In this document: positions 1 through 7,677 of the stretch, piece by piece | How positions within the stretch are numbered: position 1 is the stretch's first letter | Layout: each line of letters opens with the position of its first letter | Source of the DNA: a bacterium | GTDB lineage: Bacteria > SM23-31 > JAUVVT01 | NCBI GenBank assembly: GCA_030616165.1 | Contig: JAUWXV010000182.1 | Coordinates: 1 to 7,682 of the forward strand | Direction: 5' to 3' | Length of the DNA: 7,682 bases | Made by a program: the position numbers and the translations under genes | The notes under the pieces: generated by a model | What the model saw: only the letters and a program-made list of their open reading frames with translations | What the model was told of the DNA's origin: nothing | Database searches by the model: none

Positions 1-228
1 CCATCCTATACATCTGCTTTCGATAAAAAAATTCCCTTTATTATCCATAGCAGCGGTTTTGAACTGAACAAACTCCAGTAAATTTTTAATATTCCTTCTT
101 GAAATTTCATACTTTTCAAATCCATCTATCCACAAACTCTCAATAAGATGAATATCCACATCATCCCATCTCACGTTATCATCTTCTCTAACAATTTCAC
201 CAGAATATAATTTCGCAATCCATCTCAT
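1..228 (-). CDS. Small hypothetical protein next to virion genes, C-terminus outside window
   Basis: An open frame of 76 codons runs from an ATG at 228-226 to the window edge without a stop, so the gene is cut by the window. The protein begins MRWIAKLYSGEIVREDDNVR and contains acidic and aromatic stretches (WDDVDIHLIESLW near residues 20-32) and ends here in FFIESRCIGW. No signal peptide or membrane segment is visible. The style, a short soluble protein opening with a beta hairpin (WIAKLYSGEIVRED), resembles small accessory proteins found beside phage structural genes, but I do not recognise a family. It follows the cassette in the same direction, 94 bp after the preceding gene and beyond repeat element 1. 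The ribosome binding site is weak (AGAAG, about 4 nt before ATG). That this is a real gene is likely; its role is unknown. Confidence 0.6.
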   Translation of the reverse strand, partial: MRWIAKLYSGEIVREDDNVRWDDVDIHLIESLWIDGFEKYEISRRNIKNLLEFVQFKTAAMDNKGNFFIESRCIGW

Positions 229-251
229 TCTTCTATTACAATAATTTTTTC

Positions 252-322
252 AACTTTCCCCTCGTAAAAGGGGAAAGTTAATAGAAAGTTTTCTTGCTTA
301 CTTCTTTTTCAAAAGAAGTAAG
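252..322 (-). repeat. Two-hairpin intergenic element, copy 1
   Basis: Two perfect inverted repeats lie side by side. The distal one has 10-bp arms (252-261 and 270-279, AACTTTCCCC) around an 8-nt loop. The proximal one has 12-bp arms (297-308 and 311-322, CTTACTTCTTTT) around 2 nt. The proximal arm ends directly at the stop codon (323-325) of the upstream minus-strand gene. No run of T follows either stem on the minus strand, so this is not a textbook intrinsic terminator, although RNA hairpins here could stabilise the 3' end or end transcription. It is related in layout and sequence to the elements at 941-1018 and 2653-2746. Confidence 0.7.
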
Positions 323-889
323 TTAAGAAAAATCAAATTTCATAGAATAACCGAATGCTCCCCCTGTTCCGCCTTTTGTTCCAATTACTTCATCTGTCCC
401 GATGGATAACGCCAGGTAAATATACTGAGAAGTCTGGTCGTGAGTTATTCCGGTTATATCTCCGCCATTTATTTTAGTAACATTAGCCGACGATATGCTC
501 GTTGGACATATCCCAGGAACACCGCCTGATACCTGACCAACTGTTTTATTCTGTGTCCAGGTATTGGTTATATCACAATAGTAAGAATTATTCCCAACAA
601 AATCAGAATTCGAATTTAACCAGAACCTCATATTACTTATTGTTGTGTTGCCCTGCAAATTCGAACACCTGAAAATAACACACTTTGGCCCCACAGATGC
701 AGCTTCTGCTGTGTTATTTGCAGTCCCAAAATCGAGTGGATTATTCTGACTTACAACTGTACCAGCAGTCGTTCTATCAGATGGCTCCGTATCGGTTATA
801 CCAAGTGATCTAAACTCAACTGTAGGTATAGTCAACACCACAATAAACAACAACCATAATAATTCTAAATTAAAACCTATTTCTATCAT
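323..889 (-). CDS. Virion-associated-like beta-rich protein with hydrophobic N-terminus
   Basis: This gene encodes 188 residues. A hydrophobic stretch (about residues 9-23, LELLWLLFIVVLTIP) precedes a soluble domain rich in S, T, N and G. The domain carries patterns typical of beta-sandwich virion proteins, for example NPLDFGTANNT (residues 50-60) and a GGTGGAF turn before the C-terminal strand YSMKFDFS. Cysteines occur in pairs of regions (KCVIFRC, YYC and GIC). The n-region before the hydrophobic stretch is acidic rather than basic, which is poor for a Sec signal. The segment could be a membrane anchor, or the true start could lie downstream. The start at 889 has only a weak ribosome binding site (GTGAG). 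It lies in the virion cassette behind the secreted-type protein and ends exactly at repeat element 1. A surface or fibre-like role is inference from position and composition. Confidence 0.68.
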   Translation of the reverse strand: MIEIGFNLELLWLLFIVVLTIPTVEFRSLGITDTEPSDRTTAGTVVSQNNPLDFGTANNTAEAASVGPKCVIFRCSNLQGNTTISNMRFWLNSNSDFVGNNSYYCDITNTWTQNKTVGQVSGGVPGICPTSISSANVTKINGGDITGITHDQTSQYIYLALSIGTDEVIGTKGGTGGAFGYSMKFDFS

Positions 890-940
890 ATCTAACTCAC
901 TTTAATTTATTCCCAAAATTTTAACAAAAATCGTAACTAC

Positions 941-1018
941 TTCTCATCCCCCGAATGTTCGGGGGATGAGAAATAAGTCTAAAGTTTCTTTGCCTACTTT
1001 CTTTTCAAAGAAAGTAGG
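941..1018 (-). repeat. Two-hairpin intergenic element, copy 2
   Basis: This is the best-preserved copy. The distal hairpin has perfect 15-bp arms (941-955 and 958-972, TTCTCATCCCCCGAA) around 2 nt. The proximal hairpin has perfect 12-bp arms (993-1004 and 1007-1018, CCTACTTTCTTT) around 2 nt. The 20-nt linker (973-992) resembles the linkers in the other two copies (AAGT, then TTTCTT). The proximal arm ends 4 nt before the stop codon (1023-1025) of the minus-strand gene. There is no U-tract directly after the stems on the minus strand. It may act as a terminator or as an mRNA 3'-end stabiliser, or it may be an inserted palindromic repeat. Confidence 0.75.
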
Positions 1019-1022
1019 TAAC

Positions 1023-1505
1023 TCAATCTGTGAGTTTATATTGTATAATCACCATTGGAGTATCAGCACCGCTGACAAATGTTCCAGAATAATTGTCATC
1101 ACTAAACTTCAATGTGCATGGGAAAAACCGCTCAAATGTGACTTCAGTTGAGTCAAACCACTGATTTGCAGAAGAAAAACTGTCCAGAAGAGCAACTGCA
1201 GAGTTTATCCCATTTGTCATTATAAAAGCAGTAGAATCACTGTCAACCTTTGCCCGAGCATAAACATCAATCCTCTGCACTGTTATACTATTATGCGGAT
1301 TAAAGATTCCAATTACCTGGTCAGTCGGCTCACCATAAAGAACAAACGACATAATCTTCGATTCAGACTTAGAGCGAATATAATCCCTGACAGAACTCCA
1401 CCAAGACCGCGGAACCTGAGGGTCCTTAACTTGAGAACTCACCGCAATGGCTATAAAAAATACAAACACAAGTGAATATATACCTGCCCATATTTTCCTT
1501 TTCAT
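1023..1505 (-). CDS. Secreted beta-rich protein downstream of the capsid gene
   Basis: This gene encodes 160 residues. The N-terminus is a classic Sec signal peptide: basic MKRK, a hydrophobic core from about residue 9 to 22 (IYSLVFVFFIAIAV), then AVSS with likely cleavage near residues 23-24. The mature part is soluble and beta-rich, with IGIFNPHN and VQRIDVYARAKVDSDSTAF followed by a closing strand MVIIQYKL. This kind of domain is common in phage head-decoration and fibre proteins, but I recognise no named family. The start is well supported: GGAGG at 1511-1515 lies 5 nt before ATG. That Shine-Dalgarno directly abuts the TAA of the capsid gene, so translation is probably coupled to it. An export signal on a protein in a capsid operon is unusual, because tailed-phage virion proteins normally assemble in the cytoplasm. 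Confidence 0.78.
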   Translation of the reverse strand: MKRKIWAGIYSLVFVFFIAIAVSSQVKDPQVPRSWWSSVRDYIRSKSESKIMSFVLYGEPTDQVIGIFNPHNSITVQRIDVYARAKVDSDSTAFIMTNGINSAVALLDSFSSANQWFDSTEVTFERFFPCTLKFSDDNYSGTFVSGADTPMVIIQYKLTD

Positions 1506-1515
1506 ATCAGCCTCC

Positions 1516-2580
1516 TTAACTCATATCCAGATATTTTCTTGCCTTATCACATAATACAGAATATGCAATAGACTCACTTATAATACATTCTTCGATTCTT
1601 TTCTCGATAATCTTATCCGACTCAACAAGTAGGTCCTGCTCAACACCCTTCTTAATAGCAAACCTTTTATCAACAGCAGCAATATAGTTATCACTTGCAG
1701 AATCATAGCGAAAAATCTCCGCTCCCAAAGGAGTCACAATCTCACCAGTTGCCTGAAATTTAAATCCTGCATGTGGGTCCTTAAATTCTGCCAGACTCAA
1801 TATCTTTGATTCTATATTCTTGTTTACAATAATGGCATTCATTTCAAATGGTTCAAACTCAACAAAAAGATTTACAAGATCGTTATAGGTCAAATTTTCA
1901 TACCCGGGTGTACCTGCAGATACTGAATCTGCTGCTCCTGATGCACCATCACCACTAATCACAGAATTATAAACCGAAGCTATCTTGTCGTTTTGAATAT
2001 TGAAACCTACATACCACAAAATCACCTTGAATTCTGCCAGAGATGACCATCTTATCACCCGATAAGTAAAATCAAGTCCCCTACCGTAATCGCGAATAGA
2101 TATATCTTTATCTCGATAAGTAACAGTAATCTTCGGAACTGAGCTTCCTTCCCCTATCTCTGCAAGTGATTTCCCTTTTGTCTCAGGAGAACTAATATAC
2201 AGAGGTTTATAACTCGGCCCTTTAACTGGTGTCTCAACTGCTACTAATTTATCAGCACCCGGCTTCATTGCCATACCTGCCTTAATCTGTTGCCTGAACC
2301 ACTCGGGCGCCAATATCATCGCAGAACTCGAAAAAAATTCATCAACAGTTACAGACCTTTTCTCAGATGAAGTGATATTCGCAAGCATAAACTGCCGCTC
2401 AAATGCATCAAGGGGTGAAACAACATGACCAAGAGAGTCCCTCTCAGAAGGGTCTTTCTCCTCAAGAATATCAAGCAGTGTCAAACCCCTTTCATCTGCT
2501 TCTTTATATAAACTCAAATCTCCAGTCTTCGACAGCCTTGCTATCTCCTTCTGAAGGTCTTTTGCCTTAGTTAAATCCAT
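1516..2580 (-). CDS. HK97-fold phage major capsid protein
   Basis: This 354-residue protein looks like an HK97-type major capsid protein, the subunit of the icosahedral shell of tailed phages and relatives. Residues 1-75 are a charged, mainly helical N-arm (a KEADERGLTLLDILEE segment, then SPLDAFERQFMLANI at 56-70), comparable to the arm or delta region. Residues about 120-175 fit the extended loop and spine (EGSSVPKITVTYRDKDISIR). SGDGASG at 209-215 is a typical glycine-rich turn. Residues 247-355 fit the A-domain and C-terminal strand (IIVNKNIESKIL, then TPLGAEIF, then IAAVDKRFAIKKGVEQDL). The length matches the family (lambda E is about 340 residues). The start has GGAGG 5 nt before ATG (2586-2590). 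It follows the decoration-like gene after a 167-bp gap containing repeat element 3. An encapsulin is less likely because of the neighbours. The assignment is by pattern, not alignment. Confidence 0.85.
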   Translation of the reverse strand: MDLTKAKDLQKEIARLSKTGDLSLYKEADERGLTLLDILEEKDPSERDSLGHVVSPLDAFERQFMLANITSSEKRSVTVDEFFSSSAMILAPEWFRQQIKAGMAMKPGADKLVAVETPVKGPSYKPLYISSPETKGKSLAEIGEGSSVPKITVTYRDKDISIRDYGRGLDFTYRVIRWSSLAEFKVILWYVGFNIQNDKIASVYNSVISGDGASGAADSVSAGTPGYENLTYNDLVNLFVEFEPFEMNAIIVNKNIESKILSLAEFKDPHAGFKFQATGEIVTPLGAEIFRYDSASDNYIAAVDKRFAIKKGVEQDLLVESDKIIEKRIEECIISESIAYSVLCDKARKYLDMS

Positions 2581-2652
2581 CTTTACCTCCTTAATAATTA
2601 TAAAGTATTTAATATGCTTATCATTCTTCTCTACAAATTAGAAATTAACCAC

Positions 2653-2746
2653 CCCGAATTCTCGGGATAAGTTTAAAATTTCTTTTCCCTCGATTACTCG
2701 AGGTATCTCCCTTGGCGGAGACTACTTCTTTTTCAAAAGAAAGTAG
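2653..2746 (-). repeat. Two-hairpin intergenic element, copy 3, expanded
   Basis: This is a third relative of the elements at 252-322 and 941-1018. The distal stem is short (CCCGA 2653-2657, TCGGG 2662-2666). The proximal stem is long with one bulge (2722-2733 and 2735-2746) and ends one base before the stop codon (2748-2750) of the decoration-like gene. Between them, about 35 extra bases carry two more small stems: CCTCGA/TCGAGG (2688-2693, 2698-2703) and TCTCC/GGAGA (2706-2710, 2717-2721). It fills most of the 167 bp before the capsid gene, so it may modulate read-through from decoration to capsid gene. Confidence 0.65.
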
Positions 2747-2747
2747 T

Positions 2748-3140
2748 TTAAAGCAACACATCACACGTTGCAGCGGTTGTATCCACAGAGAGTGTAATTC
2801 CTCTCCTGATACCTTCGGTGACACCTTTATCAACAGTTCCATCTCCGGACATCTGCACAGGCCACCCAATTACCGGAATTGTTTCAGAATATGGTAAATC
2901 AGCGCAGACTCCCTTAATTTGAACCGCTGCAACCGAGCCATCCTCACTCACAGCGATCAGTTTCCCGATAAACATCTCTCCGTCAGCACCCTCACTGACC
3001 TCATTGTTATCGGTTAATGCAACAGGATTACCAATATCTGATTCATCTAGCGAATAACTTCCACCCGATGACTCAATATTGAATGGAATTGCTAAAAATC
3101 CCTGTTCCTCATTATCTACAACTCTTGGGTCTATTCCCAT
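2748..3140 (-). CDS. Putative capsid decoration (head-stabilising) protein
   Basis: This protein has 130 residues and no signal peptide. It is beta-rich and opens with MGIDPRVVDNEEQGFLAIPF, followed by glycine-turn-rich strands (DIGNPVALTDNNEV, then MFIGKLIAVSEDGSVAAVQI). That second segment reads like the barrel repeats of phage head-decoration proteins such as lambda gpD or DUF2190-like capsid cement. It would bind the outside of the capsid shell. Its place directly upstream of the capsid gene matches the lambda D-E order. I chose the start at 3140 because GGAGGG lies 6 nt upstream. An earlier in-frame ATG at 3173 would add 11 residues (MVMRLKKGGKN) that merely read through that Shine-Dalgarno. 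The family call is inference from sequence style and position. Confidence 0.72.
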   Translation of the reverse strand: MGIDPRVVDNEEQGFLAIPFNIESSGGSYSLDESDIGNPVALTDNNEVSEGADGEMFIGKLIAVSEDGSVAAVQIKGVCADLPYSETIPVIGWPVQMSGDGTVDKGVTEGIRRGITLSVDTTAATCDVLL

Positions 3141-3162
3141 GTTTTTCCCTCCTTTTTTTAGA

Positions 3163-3176
3163 CGCATTACCATGCG
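3163..3176 (-). other. Small hairpin between coiled-coil and decoration genes
   Basis: There is a perfect 5-bp stem (CGCAT 3163-3167, ATGCG 3172-3176) with a 4-nt loop. It lies in the 44-bp gap between the two genes, just before an A-rich stretch and the Shine-Dalgarno of the decoration-like gene. It may be a processing or translation-tuning hairpin, but the stem is short enough to be chance. Confidence 0.3.
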
Positions 3177-3184
3177 CCCTTACA

Positions 3185-3658
3185 TTAAATTTTGAATTTA
3201 GAATAATTGATTAATTCGTTTTTTGGTGTATCTTTCACCACTTGTTTTACTTTGAATTTCACATCAAACTCAAGTAATACCTTTTCCCTCAATTCACAAA
3301 TCTCTGAAAACTTACTCATTTCTGAAACCCTCTTCATCTCATCTTCAGGATAATCCAATAGCCTCATCTTCCCCGAAATCTCATTCTTCATAAGTGTAAA
3401 AAATTTACCAAGTTCACTTTTACTTTCCTCACACTTCTTTTTAAGTTCCGATTTTTCACACTCTAAAACAGAAATGATTTCATCCAATTCTTCGATTCGT
3501 TTTTTATAGTTATCAATAACATTCTGCTCGTTTGAATGATTTATTAAAGAATTTTTTAGCTTGAGTAATAACTCAATCTCTTTATCAAAGTCAAAAACCT
3601 TACCCTCTGGGTCTTGAAGAGACTCAATACTAACACCGATTCTTTCTATTAAATCCAC
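3185..3658 (-). CDS. Coiled-coil protein, possible scaffold, first gene of cassette
   Basis: This gene encodes 157 residues rich in E and K. Residues about 26-95 have heptad-like spacing of hydrophobics (EIELLLKLKNSL, then YKKRIEELDEIISVLECEKS), predicting a long coiled coil. A charged C-terminal part (FSEICELREKVLLEFDVKF) follows. There is no membrane segment or signal. Translation starts with GTG at 3658; a strong GGAGG (3667-3671) lies 8 nt upstream, which decides the start. It is the first gene after the promoter at 3725-3753. A small helical protein before decoration and capsid genes is where phages encode the scaffolding protein (lambda Nu3 position), so a scaffold is my best guess. I recognise no family motif, and another structural or regulatory role is possible. 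Confidence 0.65.
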   Translation of the reverse strand: MDLIERIGVSIESLQDPEGKVFDFDKEIELLLKLKNSLINHSNEQNVIDNYKKRIEELDEIISVLECEKSELKKKCEESKSELGKFFTLMKNEISGKMRLLDYPEDEMKRVSEMSKFSEICELREKVLLEFDVKFKVKQVVKDTPKNELINYSKFKI

Positions 3659-3724
3659 TTTTTACACCTCCTTAAAAATACTAAATTGCCTTAGAAAAGT
3701 TATTAATAAAAATAACACATTATA

Positions 3725-3753
3725 AATATAATAAAAAATGTTCGTGTTGTCAA
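3725..3753 (-). promoter_or_regulatory. Sigma-70-like promoter of the virion cassette
   Basis: On the minus strand a consensus -35 (TTGACA, 3753-3748) and a -10 (TATATT, 3730-3725) are separated by exactly 17 nt. A-rich DNA upstream (3754-3787) resembles an UP element. Transcription would start near 3718, giving about 60 nt of leader before the GTG start at 3658. This is the best promoter in the window and suggests the cassette is transcribed independently of any longer late-phage operon. Confidence 0.7.
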
Positions 3754-3900
3754 GAACTTTTTTCGTTTCTTTAATAATTTTTTAAAAAATAAAAAATGGA
3801 GGGAAACTAAGATTATATTTTTATATAAGATAGAATAGTGAGAAAATATTGACATTTTTTTTTAATACAGGGATAGAACACGGGGTGCAGGCATTGTTCT

Positions 3901-3951
3901 GTGTCATCCATGCAATCCGTGGATACTTTCTCTCCGCGTCTCTGAGGTTCA
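3901..3951 (-). repeat. Dispersed intergenic repeat, copy 1 (diverged)
   Basis: The segment around 3904-3935 (GGATTGCATGGATGA when read on the minus strand) matches the cores of the copies at 5926-6000 and 6979-7069 with a few substitutions. It continues into a CT-rich part, CAGAGACGCGGAGAG on the minus strand. No reading frame of note crosses it. The remainder of the spacer from 3754 to 4066 is AT-rich and I see nothing else convincing there. Confidence 0.65.
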
Positions 3952-4284: not shown

Positions 4285-5181
4285 ATGATAAAGCAAAGAA
4301 AAAACAGCAATCAGCCGGAAAACTTAATATCCAGGCGTAATTTCTTGTGCAGCATAGCTGCATCAGCAGCGACATTTGCAATCGGCACTTATTGTGCGAA
4401 AGGAGATACGAATGATGCTCCAAAGACCAGTGGAATAGATTTTCCCCTTATAGATTTTCATGTTCATCTTGAAAAGGAGATGACCCTCGAAAAGGCTGTG
4501 CAGCTCTCAAATAAACTCGGTGTCAAGTTTGGGATTGCTGAGCATGGCGGTTTCAGACAGATCGTTGACGGAGATGATACTTTGAAGCGATACATTGAGA
4601 GTTTGGAAGGTCATCCTTTTTATAAAGGTATGCAAGCCGAGGGGCTTGATTGGATGAAGTGCTTTTCTAAAGATGCTGTCGCCCAACTCGACTATGTTTT
4701 GTCTGATGCGCTCACATTTCCTGAAAAAGATGGAAGGTTAATTCGGTTGTGGACACCTAAAGTGAAAATCGAAGACAAGCAAGATTTCATGGACCGATAC
4801 GTGGATTTCAATGTTTTAGTCATATCCAGCGAACCGATTGATATAATTGCAAATCCCACTTTTTTACCTTTGAGCATAGCAGATGAATATGATACCCTTT
4901 GGACAGAAGAGAGAATGAAGAAAATCATTGAGGCAGCGGTAAAACATGATGTTGCAATTGAAATCAACTCCCGTTACAATATTCCGAGTTCAGCCTTTAT
5001 AAGAATGGCAAAGAGTGCCGGCGTAAAATTTTCATTTGGTTCAAATTATCATGGCGAGAATATTGGGAGGCTGGACTACTGCTTGAAAATAGCAAAGGAA
5101 TGCGGTTTGACGCAAAAAGATATGTTCATGCCTAAACCGTACGGCATGAAACCGATCCAAAAACGAACGTTCGACAGTTAA
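4285..5181 (+). CDS. Tat-exported PHP/amidohydrolase-like metal-dependent hydrolase
   Basis: This protein has 298 residues. A twin-arginine motif SRRNFL (16-21) and an Ala-rich hydrophobic core (22-36) indicate folded export by Tat. The rest reads as a PHP-type barrel: DFHVH (57-61, the HxH motif), AEHGG (85-89), QAEG (117-120, the usual metal-binding Glu), LDYVLSDAL (135-143), DIIANPTFLP (186-195), AIEINSR (224-230) and FGSNYH (251-256). PHP domains hydrolyse phosphoesters with a trinuclear metal site. Compared with the common motifs (SxH, HP and GSDAH), some ligands look replaced here (D141/A142, N190, N254), so activity may be altered or lost. The start has AAAGGAGAT just upstream. It stands alone, with a hairpin after the stop; the substrate is unknown. 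Confidence 0.78.
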   Translation: MIKQRKNSNQPENLISRRNFLCSIAASAATFAIGTYCAKGDTNDAPKTSGIDFPLIDFHVHLEKEMTLEKAVQLSNKLGVKFGIAEHGGFRQIVDGDDTLKRYIESLEGHPFYKGMQAEGLDWMKCFSKDAVAQLDYVLSDALTFPEKDGRLIRLWTPKVKIEDKQDFMDRYVDFNVLVISSEPIDIIANPTFLPLSIADEYDTLWTEERMKKIIEAAVKHDVAIEINSRYNIPSSAFIRMAKSAGVKFSFGSNYHGENIGRLDYCLKIAKECGLTQKDMFMPKPYGMKPIQKRTFDS

Positions 5182-5749: not shown

Positions 5750-5925
5750 TGACCAGCCAGTGCTCTGATAAAAACATACAAAATTTTACTCCCCAAATTG
5801 CATGATTTGCAAACCTTGAGTTTTGAAATGAAACGATAAAAAATAAATTTAGATATAACATTCATTCTTGCCTGTACTGCAACTCTATCCTTTGGGCTTG
5901 ATTTGTGATTTGTATCCAAACCCAA

Positions 5926-6000
5926 ATCCGTATCATCCGTGCAATCTGTGGATACCTTCTCTCTGCCTCTCCTCCCTCTTCACCTCTGCAGTTAATTTTA
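5926..6000 (-). repeat. Dispersed intergenic repeat, copy 2
   Basis: The first 40 bases (5926-5965) are identical to 6979-7018. On the minus strand the unit reads TTAACTGCAGAGG, then CAGAGAGAAGG, then a core with ATTGCACGGATGATACGGAT. Its ends are the same type as in copy 3 (a GGTTAA-like end and an ATCCGTATC end). Repeats of this style, alternating CACAGA/GCAGAG words, occur between genes in many environmental bacteria. It lies 130 bp before mntA. Confidence 0.75.
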
Positions 6001-6131: not shown

Positions 6132-6437
6132 ATGATGAAAAATATGAAAAGAATTGAGGAGATAAAAGATATTATTAAACAACATAAGCAGGAATTAGAA
6201 GATAAATTCAAAATTAAAGAAATAGGTATATTTGGATCTTATGTAAGTGGGAAGTATAGAAAGAAAAGCGATATTGATATTCTTGTTGAGTTTAAAGAAC
6301 CTGTGGGATTTTTTAACTTTTTGGATTTGGAAGAATACCTTAAGAACCTGCTTGAGACAAATATCGACCTCGTATCTAAAAAAGCATTAAAACCACATAT
6401 TGGGGAATATATTCTAAAAGAGGTGATTTATATATGA
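6132..6437 (+). CDS. mntA: MntA-type nucleotidyltransferase antitoxin
   Basis: This 101-residue protein is a minimal nucleotidyltransferase of the MNT/MntA family. The signature GSx10DxD is intact: GS at 35-36 and D47-I-D49, with the third acidic residue at D79 (NIDLV). Known MntA antitoxins transfer AMP from ATP to a tyrosine of the partner HEPN toxin and so silence it. The length fits the family. Start choice is open: ATG occurs at 6132, 6135 and 6144, none with a strong Shine-Dalgarno, and the last would give the more usual MKRIEEIK start. The stop overlaps the hepT start by 4 nt (ATGA), the normal arrangement of this toxin-antitoxin pair. Base composition is very AT-rich, consistent with an acquired module. 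Confidence 0.9.
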   Translation: MMKNMKRIEEIKDIIKQHKQELEDKFKIKEIGIFGSYVSGKYRKKSDIDILVEFKEPVGFFNFLDLEEYLKNLLETNIDLVSKKALKPHIGEYILKEVIYI

Positions 6438-6778
6438 GAAAACGAGATTATCGGGATTATATCGAGGACATTGTAGATTCGATAAATGATATTGAGTTGT
6501 TCACTGAAAATATGACTTTTAAAGCTTTCAATAAGGACAAAAAAACAATAAACGCTGTTATAAGAAGTATCGAGGTTATTGGAGAGGCAGCAAAAAAAAT
6601 CCCCAAACTTATTAGAGATAAACATCCTTCTATTCCTTGGAAGAAGATAACGGGAATGAGAAATAAACTGATACATGAATACTTTGGGGTTGATATTGAG
6701 GTTTTATGGGCGACTGTGAAAGAAGATATCCCCTTACTAAAATCATTAGTTCAAGATACCTTGAAAAGTTTAGGCTAA
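6434..6778 (+). CDS. hepT: HepT-type HEPN ribonuclease toxin
   Basis: This 114-residue, all-helical HEPN protein carries the catalytic motif RNKLIHEY (R76, H81, Y83), the RX4HXY form of HepT toxins. R and H form the RNase site, and Y is the residue adenylylated by MntA in studied pairs. All key residues are present, so the toxin looks functional. Family features upstream are also seen: a first helix YRDYIEDIVDSIN and VIRSIEVIGEAAKKIP (residues 42-57). It is translationally coupled to mntA by ATGA overlap, with AGAGGTGAT upstream of its ATG. The stop TAA shares a base with an ATG that begins a possible small third gene. Confidence 0.92.
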   Translation: MRKRDYRDYIEDIVDSINDIELFTENMTFKAFNKDKKTINAVIRSIEVIGEAAKKIPKLIRDKHPSIPWKKITGMRNKLIHEYFGVDIEVLWATVKEDIPLLKSLVQDTLKSLG

Positions 6779-6873: not shown

Positions 6874-6902
6874 TTAAAAAACCCTTAAAGTAAATATCCC
6901 AA

Positions 6903-6938
6903 TTGTCAAGAACTCTTTTAGTATTTTAGTAATTTTTT
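6903..6938 (-). promoter_or_regulatory. Promoter-like motif similar to the cassette promoter upstream region
   Basis: The stretch TTGTCAAGAACT, followed by a T-rich segment ending TAATTTTTT, closely resembles 3747-3783. Read on the minus strand it offers an A-rich tract and then TTCTTGACA (a -35), but no acceptable -10 at 16-18 nt. If active it would run antisense into hepT. It is more likely a decayed copy or a chance shared -35 context. Confidence 0.3.
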
Positions 6939-6978
6939 CATAGCATCGCCCGTTAACGCGTCTCTCCTAACAATGATA

Positions 6979-7069
6979 ATCCGTATCATCCGTGCAATCT
7001 GTGGATACCTTCTCTCTGTCTATCTCTGTCTCTCTGCGTCCTTGCCCCTTGGGTCTGTGGTTAATTTAT
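6979..7069 (-). repeat. Dispersed intergenic repeat, copy 3
   Basis: The first 40 bases (6979-7018) are identical to 5926-5965. The rest is CT-rich (CTCTGTC repeated) and ends in a GGTTAATTTA segment resembling the end of copy 2. With copy 2 it forms direct repeats about 1 kb apart that flank the whole mntA-hepT operon. Confidence 0.75.
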
Positions 7070-7374: not shown

Positions 7375-7460
7375 AATAACAATTTAAATAAATTTGGCGC
7401 ATAGTTTGTATTTATTGCAAAATCAATTTTAGTATTGTGTTTTATAAATAATATGATTGG

Positions 7461-7599
7461 ATTGTGCATACATGAAAAAAAGTATAAATTCTCGGCTATT
7501 AAGGATTGGATTACCGACTGCGCGGGAATGACAGAGGTACTATCGAAAAAAGAATTATCATTCCTGCGAAAGCATGAACCTATTTCATGTATGCACAAT
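7461..7599. mobile_element. MITE-like element with 17-bp terminal inverted repeats
   Basis: Perfect 17-bp terminal inverted repeats (ATTGTGCATACATGAAA at 7461-7477, its complement at 7583-7599) bound a 139-bp unit without coding capacity. Inside, GCGCGGGAATGACAG (about 7519-7533) and TCATTCCTGCGAAAGCATGAACC (about 7558-7580) are imperfect inverted copies of each other, of the widespread TCATTCC-GCGAAAGC palindromic type. No clear target-site duplication is seen. The whole unit can fold into one long hairpin, as non-autonomous miniature elements or structured intergenic repeats do. No transposase is in the window. Confidence 0.65.
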
Positions 7600-7677
7600 A
7601 TAGTTTGATTTTTTACAATTATTATATCATTTAATTTAAGGAACATAACATTAGTAACAACATCCGGAGGTTATGAT

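Follow-up and report, generated by a model that had tools for sequence, protein, structure and literature searches.

A vertically inherited capsid, neck and packaging gene cluster of probable gene transfer agent type in uncultured bacterial phyla

The 7,682-bp stretch of DNA analyzed here (hereafter, the window) is a complete contig, JAUWXV010000182.1 (C238), from a bacterium of the SM23-31 lineage (class JAUVVT01), and it ends within a set of genes for capsid and capsid-associated proteins. This set probably makes up the capsid half of a cluster for head, neck and packaging functions, one that is chromosomally fixed, is inherited vertically and most likely acts like a gene transfer agent (GTA). 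The case for a GTA-like function is strong for the relatives of the cluster in Zixibacteria and in the phylum KSB1; for the copy in the window such a function is likely, with less certainty, because a viral contig (IMGVR_UViG_3300028837_001967, G060) pairs the same block of genes with an integrase.

Distribution, inheritance and chromosomal context

When 84,980 species genomes were scanned, 62 loci emerged, mostly from Zixibacteria, with the rest from KSB1, Calditrichota and a few other groups, compared with very few viral contigs. In Zixibacteria, the capsid protein is encoded in 111 of the 132 genomes, nearly always as exactly one full-length copy, and the large terminase subunit (TerL) in 115; at least one of the two is present in 124 genomes (two weak TerL matches included). 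In KSB1, 34 of the 39 genomes encode the capsid protein, again nearly always in a single copy. Within the class of the window, the capsid protein was found in four of the six genomes and TerL in five, spanning three families; the genome that lacks TerL is 70% complete.

The history of the capsid gene closely follows that of the hosts. Capsid and RpoB trees built for 25 genomes are almost identical in topology, every well-supported capsid branch being compatible with RpoB, and the capsid and RpoB distances are strongly correlated both in Zixibacteria (r 0.95, p 1e-4) and in KSB1 (r 0.95, p 0.0025). The ratio of nonsynonymous to synonymous substitution rates (dN/dS) in the capsid gene is 0.04-0.08 for close pairs, which indicates purifying selection. 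In the class of the window, UvrB served as the host marker, rpoB being not found in G000 or G004; TerL forms two groups, (G000, G003) and (G004, G005, G002), the second made up of genomes of family f2, and the UvrB pairs, G000-G003 and G002-G004, agree with these wherever UvrB is available.

The cluster is embedded in chromosomal DNA. Subgroups of Zixibacteria share neighboring genes on both sides of it, and in G004, a genome of the window's class, the flank includes leuS, topA, recA and the genes for a CDP-alcohol phosphatidyltransferase and Nramp, the 40 kb immediately upstream being core chromosome; Nramp lies upstream of the cluster in G005 as well. A phmmer search of 927 kb around the 62 loci detected no relatives of the mobility and replication proteins used as queries (tyrosine recombinases, helicase, AAA protein, nuclease), with the exception of one integrase element inserted in G005. 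In some genomes a long distance separates the capsid gene from the TerL gene (about 90 kb in G176; about 1.3 Mb in G062, at C1 11341 and 1306323), and therefore the gene set is endogenised over several loci. In G091 (CP070674, L090), a large rearrangement split the capsid gene itself (C1 1725307 and 2322220); together with the separation in G062, this shows that in some lineages the cluster has been dispersed or has decayed.

The G005 element, which encodes a tyrosine recombinase, starts inside the large cluster gene (L012:7790-8548, contig C104), and another contig, C40, carries that gene uninterrupted across the stretch in question; perhaps, this is an insertion present in part of the population.

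Gene content and order of the cluster

The window contains six collinear minus-strand open reading frames (ORFs) within 1-3658, preceded by a promoter-like site:

3725-3753, minus strand: promoter-like TTGACA-17-TATATT, 11 of 12 consensus matches, upstream of the cluster
3185-3658, minus strand: coiled-coil protein of 157 aa, probably a scaffold to judge from its position, about 22% identical to its positional counterpart
2748-3173, minus strand: head decoration protein, 141 aa (phrog_4588, virion structural protein, E 5e-15)
1516-2580, minus strand: major capsid protein, 354 aa, HK97 fold (phrog_3922, major head protein, E 3e-58)
1023-1505, minus strand: 160-aa protein associated with the virion cluster, with a signal-like N-terminal segment and a conserved Q-KDP-PRSWW motif
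323-889, minus strand: conserved cluster protein, about 170 aa, 53-61% identical to homologues in G003, G004, G005 and G060
1-228, minus strand: 5' part of a conserved cluster protein of about 100 aa, truncated by the contig end (homologues of 98-112 aa in L012, L013 and L014)

A reading of the window made earlier from the sequence alone (hereafter, the sequence-only reading) had proposed a decoration gene and a major capsid gene, and both assignments hold, for the 141-aa and 354-aa proteins, respectively. The 354-aa protein has no Pfam match, and its AlphaFold2 model (pLDDT 88, from an alignment of 22 sequences) adopts the HK97 fold according to both Foldseek and VIA. L017, which aligned poorly, was excluded from the capsid alignment. 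The VIA Z scores are 17.0 for the Pyrococcus furiosus virus-like particle, 15.9 for the HK97 prohead and 14.6 for the RcGTA capsid; the top Foldseek match is EcCI2, a capsid-forming phage-inducible chromosomal island (cf-PICI), and encapsulins, which also have the HK97 fold, are matched strongly as well. In the phage collection, the capsid protein matches only unannotated human gut phage contigs, with 26-33% identity. The decoration protein is 72% identical to its homologues in L012 and L013, which start at its residue 12, so that the true start of the gene is probably at 3140. The 157-aa protein shares C-terminal FD..F and SxFK motifs with its relatives, and its gene precedes the decoration gene in other loci too; the coiled coil-decoration-capsid order that the sequence-only reading described is, indeed, conserved. 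Homologues of the 160-aa protein are found in G003 (34% identity) and in the viral contig G060 (26%). The homologues of the approximately 170-aa protein are without exception encoded between the capsid and neck genes, and its start is likely to be the TTG at 835, since the alignment with the homologues begins at residue 19.

N-termini resembling secretion signals, which are unusual for virion proteins, occur on several cluster proteins (1023-1505 in the window; L014:2740-4815; L038:13902-15970), in the capsid-packaging clusters of several phyla as well as in G060.

The sequence-only reading took the capsid genes for an isolated cassette with no portal or terminase genes upstream. Such genes are not missing: a search with the proteins of relatives identified one TerL and one portal protein elsewhere in this genome, on contig C76. 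The genes on this contig encode, in order, a large secreted-type protein (cut by the contig end), a 327-aa neck adaptor, the small terminase subunit (TerS), TerL, the portal protein and a 731-aa protein, followed by two small ORFs, a Hydrolase_2 lysin and a small membrane protein; a holin-like protein is among the products of this contig. The portal ORF is intact, with a TGA as its terminal stop codon. C76 starts within the gene that, in the conserved order, comes next after the gene for the approximately 100-aa protein at the left edge of the window. This edge is the downstream end of the minus-strand cluster, and packaging genes beyond it, half of what the sequence-only reading had named (packaging and tail genes) as evidence against an isolated cassette, are placed there by C76 and the synteny of relatives.

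The relatives display the order in continuous form. In G004 (L013), a single contig carries coiled coil, decoration and capsid genes and, further on, neck adaptor, TerS, TerL, portal, protease-like and holin-like genes; in G003 (L014), the block is unbroken through TerL; and the 31-kb IMG/VR contig G060 has the window-type order followed by integrase, helicase and AAA genes on the opposite strand. In the window type, the capsid module thus comes first and is followed by the neck, terminase, portal and lysis modules. The apparent isolation of the capsid genes was an artefact of the assembly combined with this capsid-before-terminase arrangement, which the sequence-only reading had not expected, and the packaging genes had been sought on the wrong side.

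In Zixibacteria, the order is a permutation of the window-type one: portal, TerL, protease-like protein, small transmembrane protein, coiled coil, decoration protein and capsid, followed by a beta-propeller-like protein, the neck adaptor and further genes, with the holin-like protein last. BLAST with the window-type TerL finds no TerL in Zixibacteria, the proteins being too diverged; in the Zixibacteria TerL themselves, the Walker A motif GNRWGKS and the acidic residues are invariant. Given this divergence and the permuted order, the sister phyla may each have domesticated related phages on their own, or there may have been exchange of TerL.

Packaging, neck and lysis proteins

Four cluster proteins match phage families, namely, capsid, decoration, portal and protease-like (PHROG 3922, 4588, 3753 and 16951, the last annotated as unknown). 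The model of the neck adaptor P330 is helical, with inserted Ig-like domains, and is structurally similar to T4 gp13 (Z 8.6), the SU10 tail protein (Z 7.7) and the RcGTA neck protein (Z 7.2). The cluster also encodes a holin-like protein and a Hydrolase_2 lysin. No genes for long or contractile tails were recognized in the cluster, in which many genes belong to no known family.

The protein encoded after the portal gene has no sequence match in the PDB. It was considered as a receptor-binding protein, and this assignment was dropped, its N-terminal domain aligning instead with the HK97 protease gp4. In this hhalign alignment (P 8e-4, probability just 25%), an invariant histidine and an invariant serine are matched; the family has, in addition, a conserved Cys/His motif, and one member shows a weak match to Peptidase_S78 (E 0.12). 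These similarities lend moderate support to a prohead-protease-like role. In the genome of the window, where it is the 731-aa protein of C76, and in several Zixibacteria, this protein is fused to an ATP-dependent DNA ligase domain (PF01068):

L027:6765-8960 (C76), L065:6492-8576, L068:6439-8640, L064:6100-8352, L048:1029-3308: protease-like/ligase-like fusion

The KxDG active-site motif of the ligase is intact (KYDG) in the four Zixibacteria loci, L048, L064, L065 and L068. In the genome of the window the motif reads LYEG, so that ligation by this fusion protein is unlikely. The versions from phage G060 and from KSB1 lack the ligase-like extension.

A gene transfer agent and its alternatives

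Six defining features of GTAs have been published (PMC9662315): caudovirion-like particles made of proteins of caudoviricete origin; full endogenisation, often over multiple loci; mostly vertical inheritance with co-diversification; packaging of mostly random host DNA; an own genome that cannot be fully packaged; and delivery of the DNA to other cells. Judged by genes, the first of these applies, the capsid, portal, TerL and neck adaptor being of caudoviricete derivation by family or fold. Endogenisation is evident in Zixibacteria from the chromosomal flanks and dispersed loci; in the class of the window, where the upstream side is the one sequenced, it is suggested. Co-diversification with the host is apparent in Zixibacteria and KSB1; in the class of the window, with TerL in agreement with UvrB and capsid divergence high, the picture is suggestive. 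We infer that particles are assembled, that they package host rather than their own DNA and that they deliver it; the window's copy, which represents a third lineage, presumably behaves as the Zixibacteria and KSB1 copies do. In such a scheme, host cells would express the cluster; small HK97-type heads would be built with the scaffold, protease-like and decoration proteins and loaded, via the portal and terminase, with fragments of the host's DNA; the neck adaptor would close the filled heads; holin and lysin would lyse the cell; and the DNA would reach relatives of the host. The sequence-only reading had listed a domesticated capsid module among its possibilities, beside a satellite or reduced element and a prophage fragment. 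Its premise of missing packaging genes fails, whereas domestication is supported for the family by phylum-wide single-copy presence, congruence with the hosts, purifying selection, chromosomal flanks and the lack of mobility genes.

Several observations, mostly from the class of the window, weigh against a fixed GTA-like cluster. The junction between C238 and C76 is deduced from synteny, the two contigs having no end overlap. Capsids of G003 and G005 differ by 57%, versus 30% for RpoB, and the closest partners of the capsid do not fully track those of TerL; because capsid divergence exceeds that of RpoB, the claim of vertical inheritance is weaker for this class. Flanking genes are common to G004 and G005 only, and the contigs of the class stop just past the cluster, so that the sequenced flank is the upstream one. 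Several KSB1 capsid copies hold one in-frame stop codon, and a few of those in Zixibacteria are broken (fragments in G163 and G184). Finally, G060 combines a window-type block with a phage integrase, a helicase and an amidase, and a block of this kind can thus be part of a temperate phage.

The last observation is the basis of the best-surviving alternative, which we nevertheless consider unlikely: that the window derives from an ordinary temperate prophage, or a remnant of one, of the G060 type, with integration and replication genes located beyond the sequenced contigs. The window-type gene order of G060 alongside its Phage_integrase (E 4e-27), the termination of both the window contig and C76 before any downstream flank, and the high capsid divergence within the class are all compatible with a prophage. 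Against it stand the presence of TerL, with a host-like topology, in five genomes from three families of the class, the core chromosome directly upstream in G004 and the near-universal single-copy inheritance in the sister phyla. The AAA replication protein of G060 was, furthermore, absent from all 16 genomes tested, a weak negative given that the positive control gave no signal.

A domesticated capsid with a purpose other than DNA transfer, such as a storage or killing particle, is improbable. The strong match of the capsid fold to encapsulins and the secreted appearance of several cluster proteins, odd for virion parts, would suit such a particle, but the cluster retains its portal and TerS, a TerL whose motor motifs are intact, a neck adaptor and genes for lysis, none of which an encapsulin needs, and genes for contractile or long tails were not recognized in it. 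Identification as an encapsulin proper was set aside despite the likeness of the folds, the portal, TerS, TerL and neck genes being in one cluster with the capsid. Less probable still is a satellite or capsid-forming chromosomal island using helper-phage tails, which would account for a cluster without recognizable tail genes and for EcCI2 as the best Foldseek match of the capsid (Foldseek similarity alone is not membership), but not for the lack of an island integrase in the 927 kb scanned (one inserted element excepted), the vertical inheritance across entire phyla, the cluster's own holin-like gene and lysin, or closed Zixibacteria genomes that show neither integrase nor excision.

Beyond a GTA-like function as such, we tentatively propose, with less confidence, an undescribed GTA lineage whose fixation is as long as the phyla themselves, in Zixibacteria, KSB1 and the class of the window, and whose heads enclose the protease-like/DNA-ligase-like fusion, so that nicks in the packaged DNA might be sealed inside the particle; in-particle sealing is suggested by the intact active-site lysine of the ligase in one Zixibacteria group. 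GTAs have been experimentally established in few lineages, namely, alphaproteobacteria, Desulfovibrio, Brachyspira and Methanococcus voltae, and how common they are beyond these is stated to be an open question (PMC9662315, PMC11841831). Our search of the open-access literature found no report linking GTAs with Zixibacteria and, among the papers listed, none describing the cluster in KSB1 (Zhuqueibacterota). If the GTA-like interpretation is true, DNA exchange by domesticated particles would be an ancestral trait of two entire uncultured phyla.

Other features of the window

A promoter-like sequence corresponding to the near-consensus promoter with which the sequence-only reading opened the cluster lies at 3753-3725; promoter-like sites occur in this region at chance level, however, which makes this one weak evidence. 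Its -35 region falls within a two-copy repeat (3736-3782, 6892-6938). GC skew is strong in the window cluster and is not consistent among the relatives.

Upstream of the cluster, the repeats and opposite-strand genes seen in the sequence-only reading were confirmed. A 47-nt dispersed repeat is present in three intergenic copies (81-100% alike) to the right of the cluster, at 3896-3942, 5925-5971 and 6978-7024. The opposite-strand genes in the right half of the window encode a twin-arginine-signal protein (4285-5181; 298 aa, no Pfam match), which contains DFHVH, a typical motif of metal-dependent hydrolases; a small membrane protein; and a pair of proteins of the NTP_transf_2 (MNT) and HepT-like types (6132-6778), probably a type VII toxin-antitoxin module. 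Near the right end of the contig, a 36-nt inverted repeat (7442-7477 and 7583-7618, 78% complementary) flanks a short ORF pair; it could represent a small transposable element or an intergenic repeat.

Comparison with known systems

The cluster shares the HK97 fold of the shell protein with encapsulins and capsid-forming PICIs. It differs from the former in retaining portal, terminase, neck and lysis genes and from the latter in that no island integrase was found around the relatives, one inserted element excepted. Among viruses, the known phage members of PHROG families 3922, 4588, 3753 and 16951 are distant from the cluster proteins. The temperate phage contig G060 is closer: its gene order matches, and nearly every gene of the window cluster has a homologue in it, at 26-53% identity. 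It carries, in addition, an integrase, a helicase, an AAA protein and an amidase, and its protease-like protein is without the ligase-like extension.

Compared with RcGTA (Alphaproteobacteria, Rhodogtaviriformidae), there is no close sequence kinship, the capsid being just 16-18% identical in structural alignments; the module order is different, no long-tail genes are recognized in the cluster, and the hosts are candidate phyla of the FCB group. Like RcGTA, the present cluster measures about 14 kb, combines an HK97-type capsid gene with portal, terminase and neck genes, is present in one copy per genome, is inherited vertically under purifying selection, is without replication and integration genes in the relatives scanned and also has genes spread over several loci. 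Thus, the cluster appears to work like a GTA, an agent of a known kind, and yet is not close kin of any described GTA.

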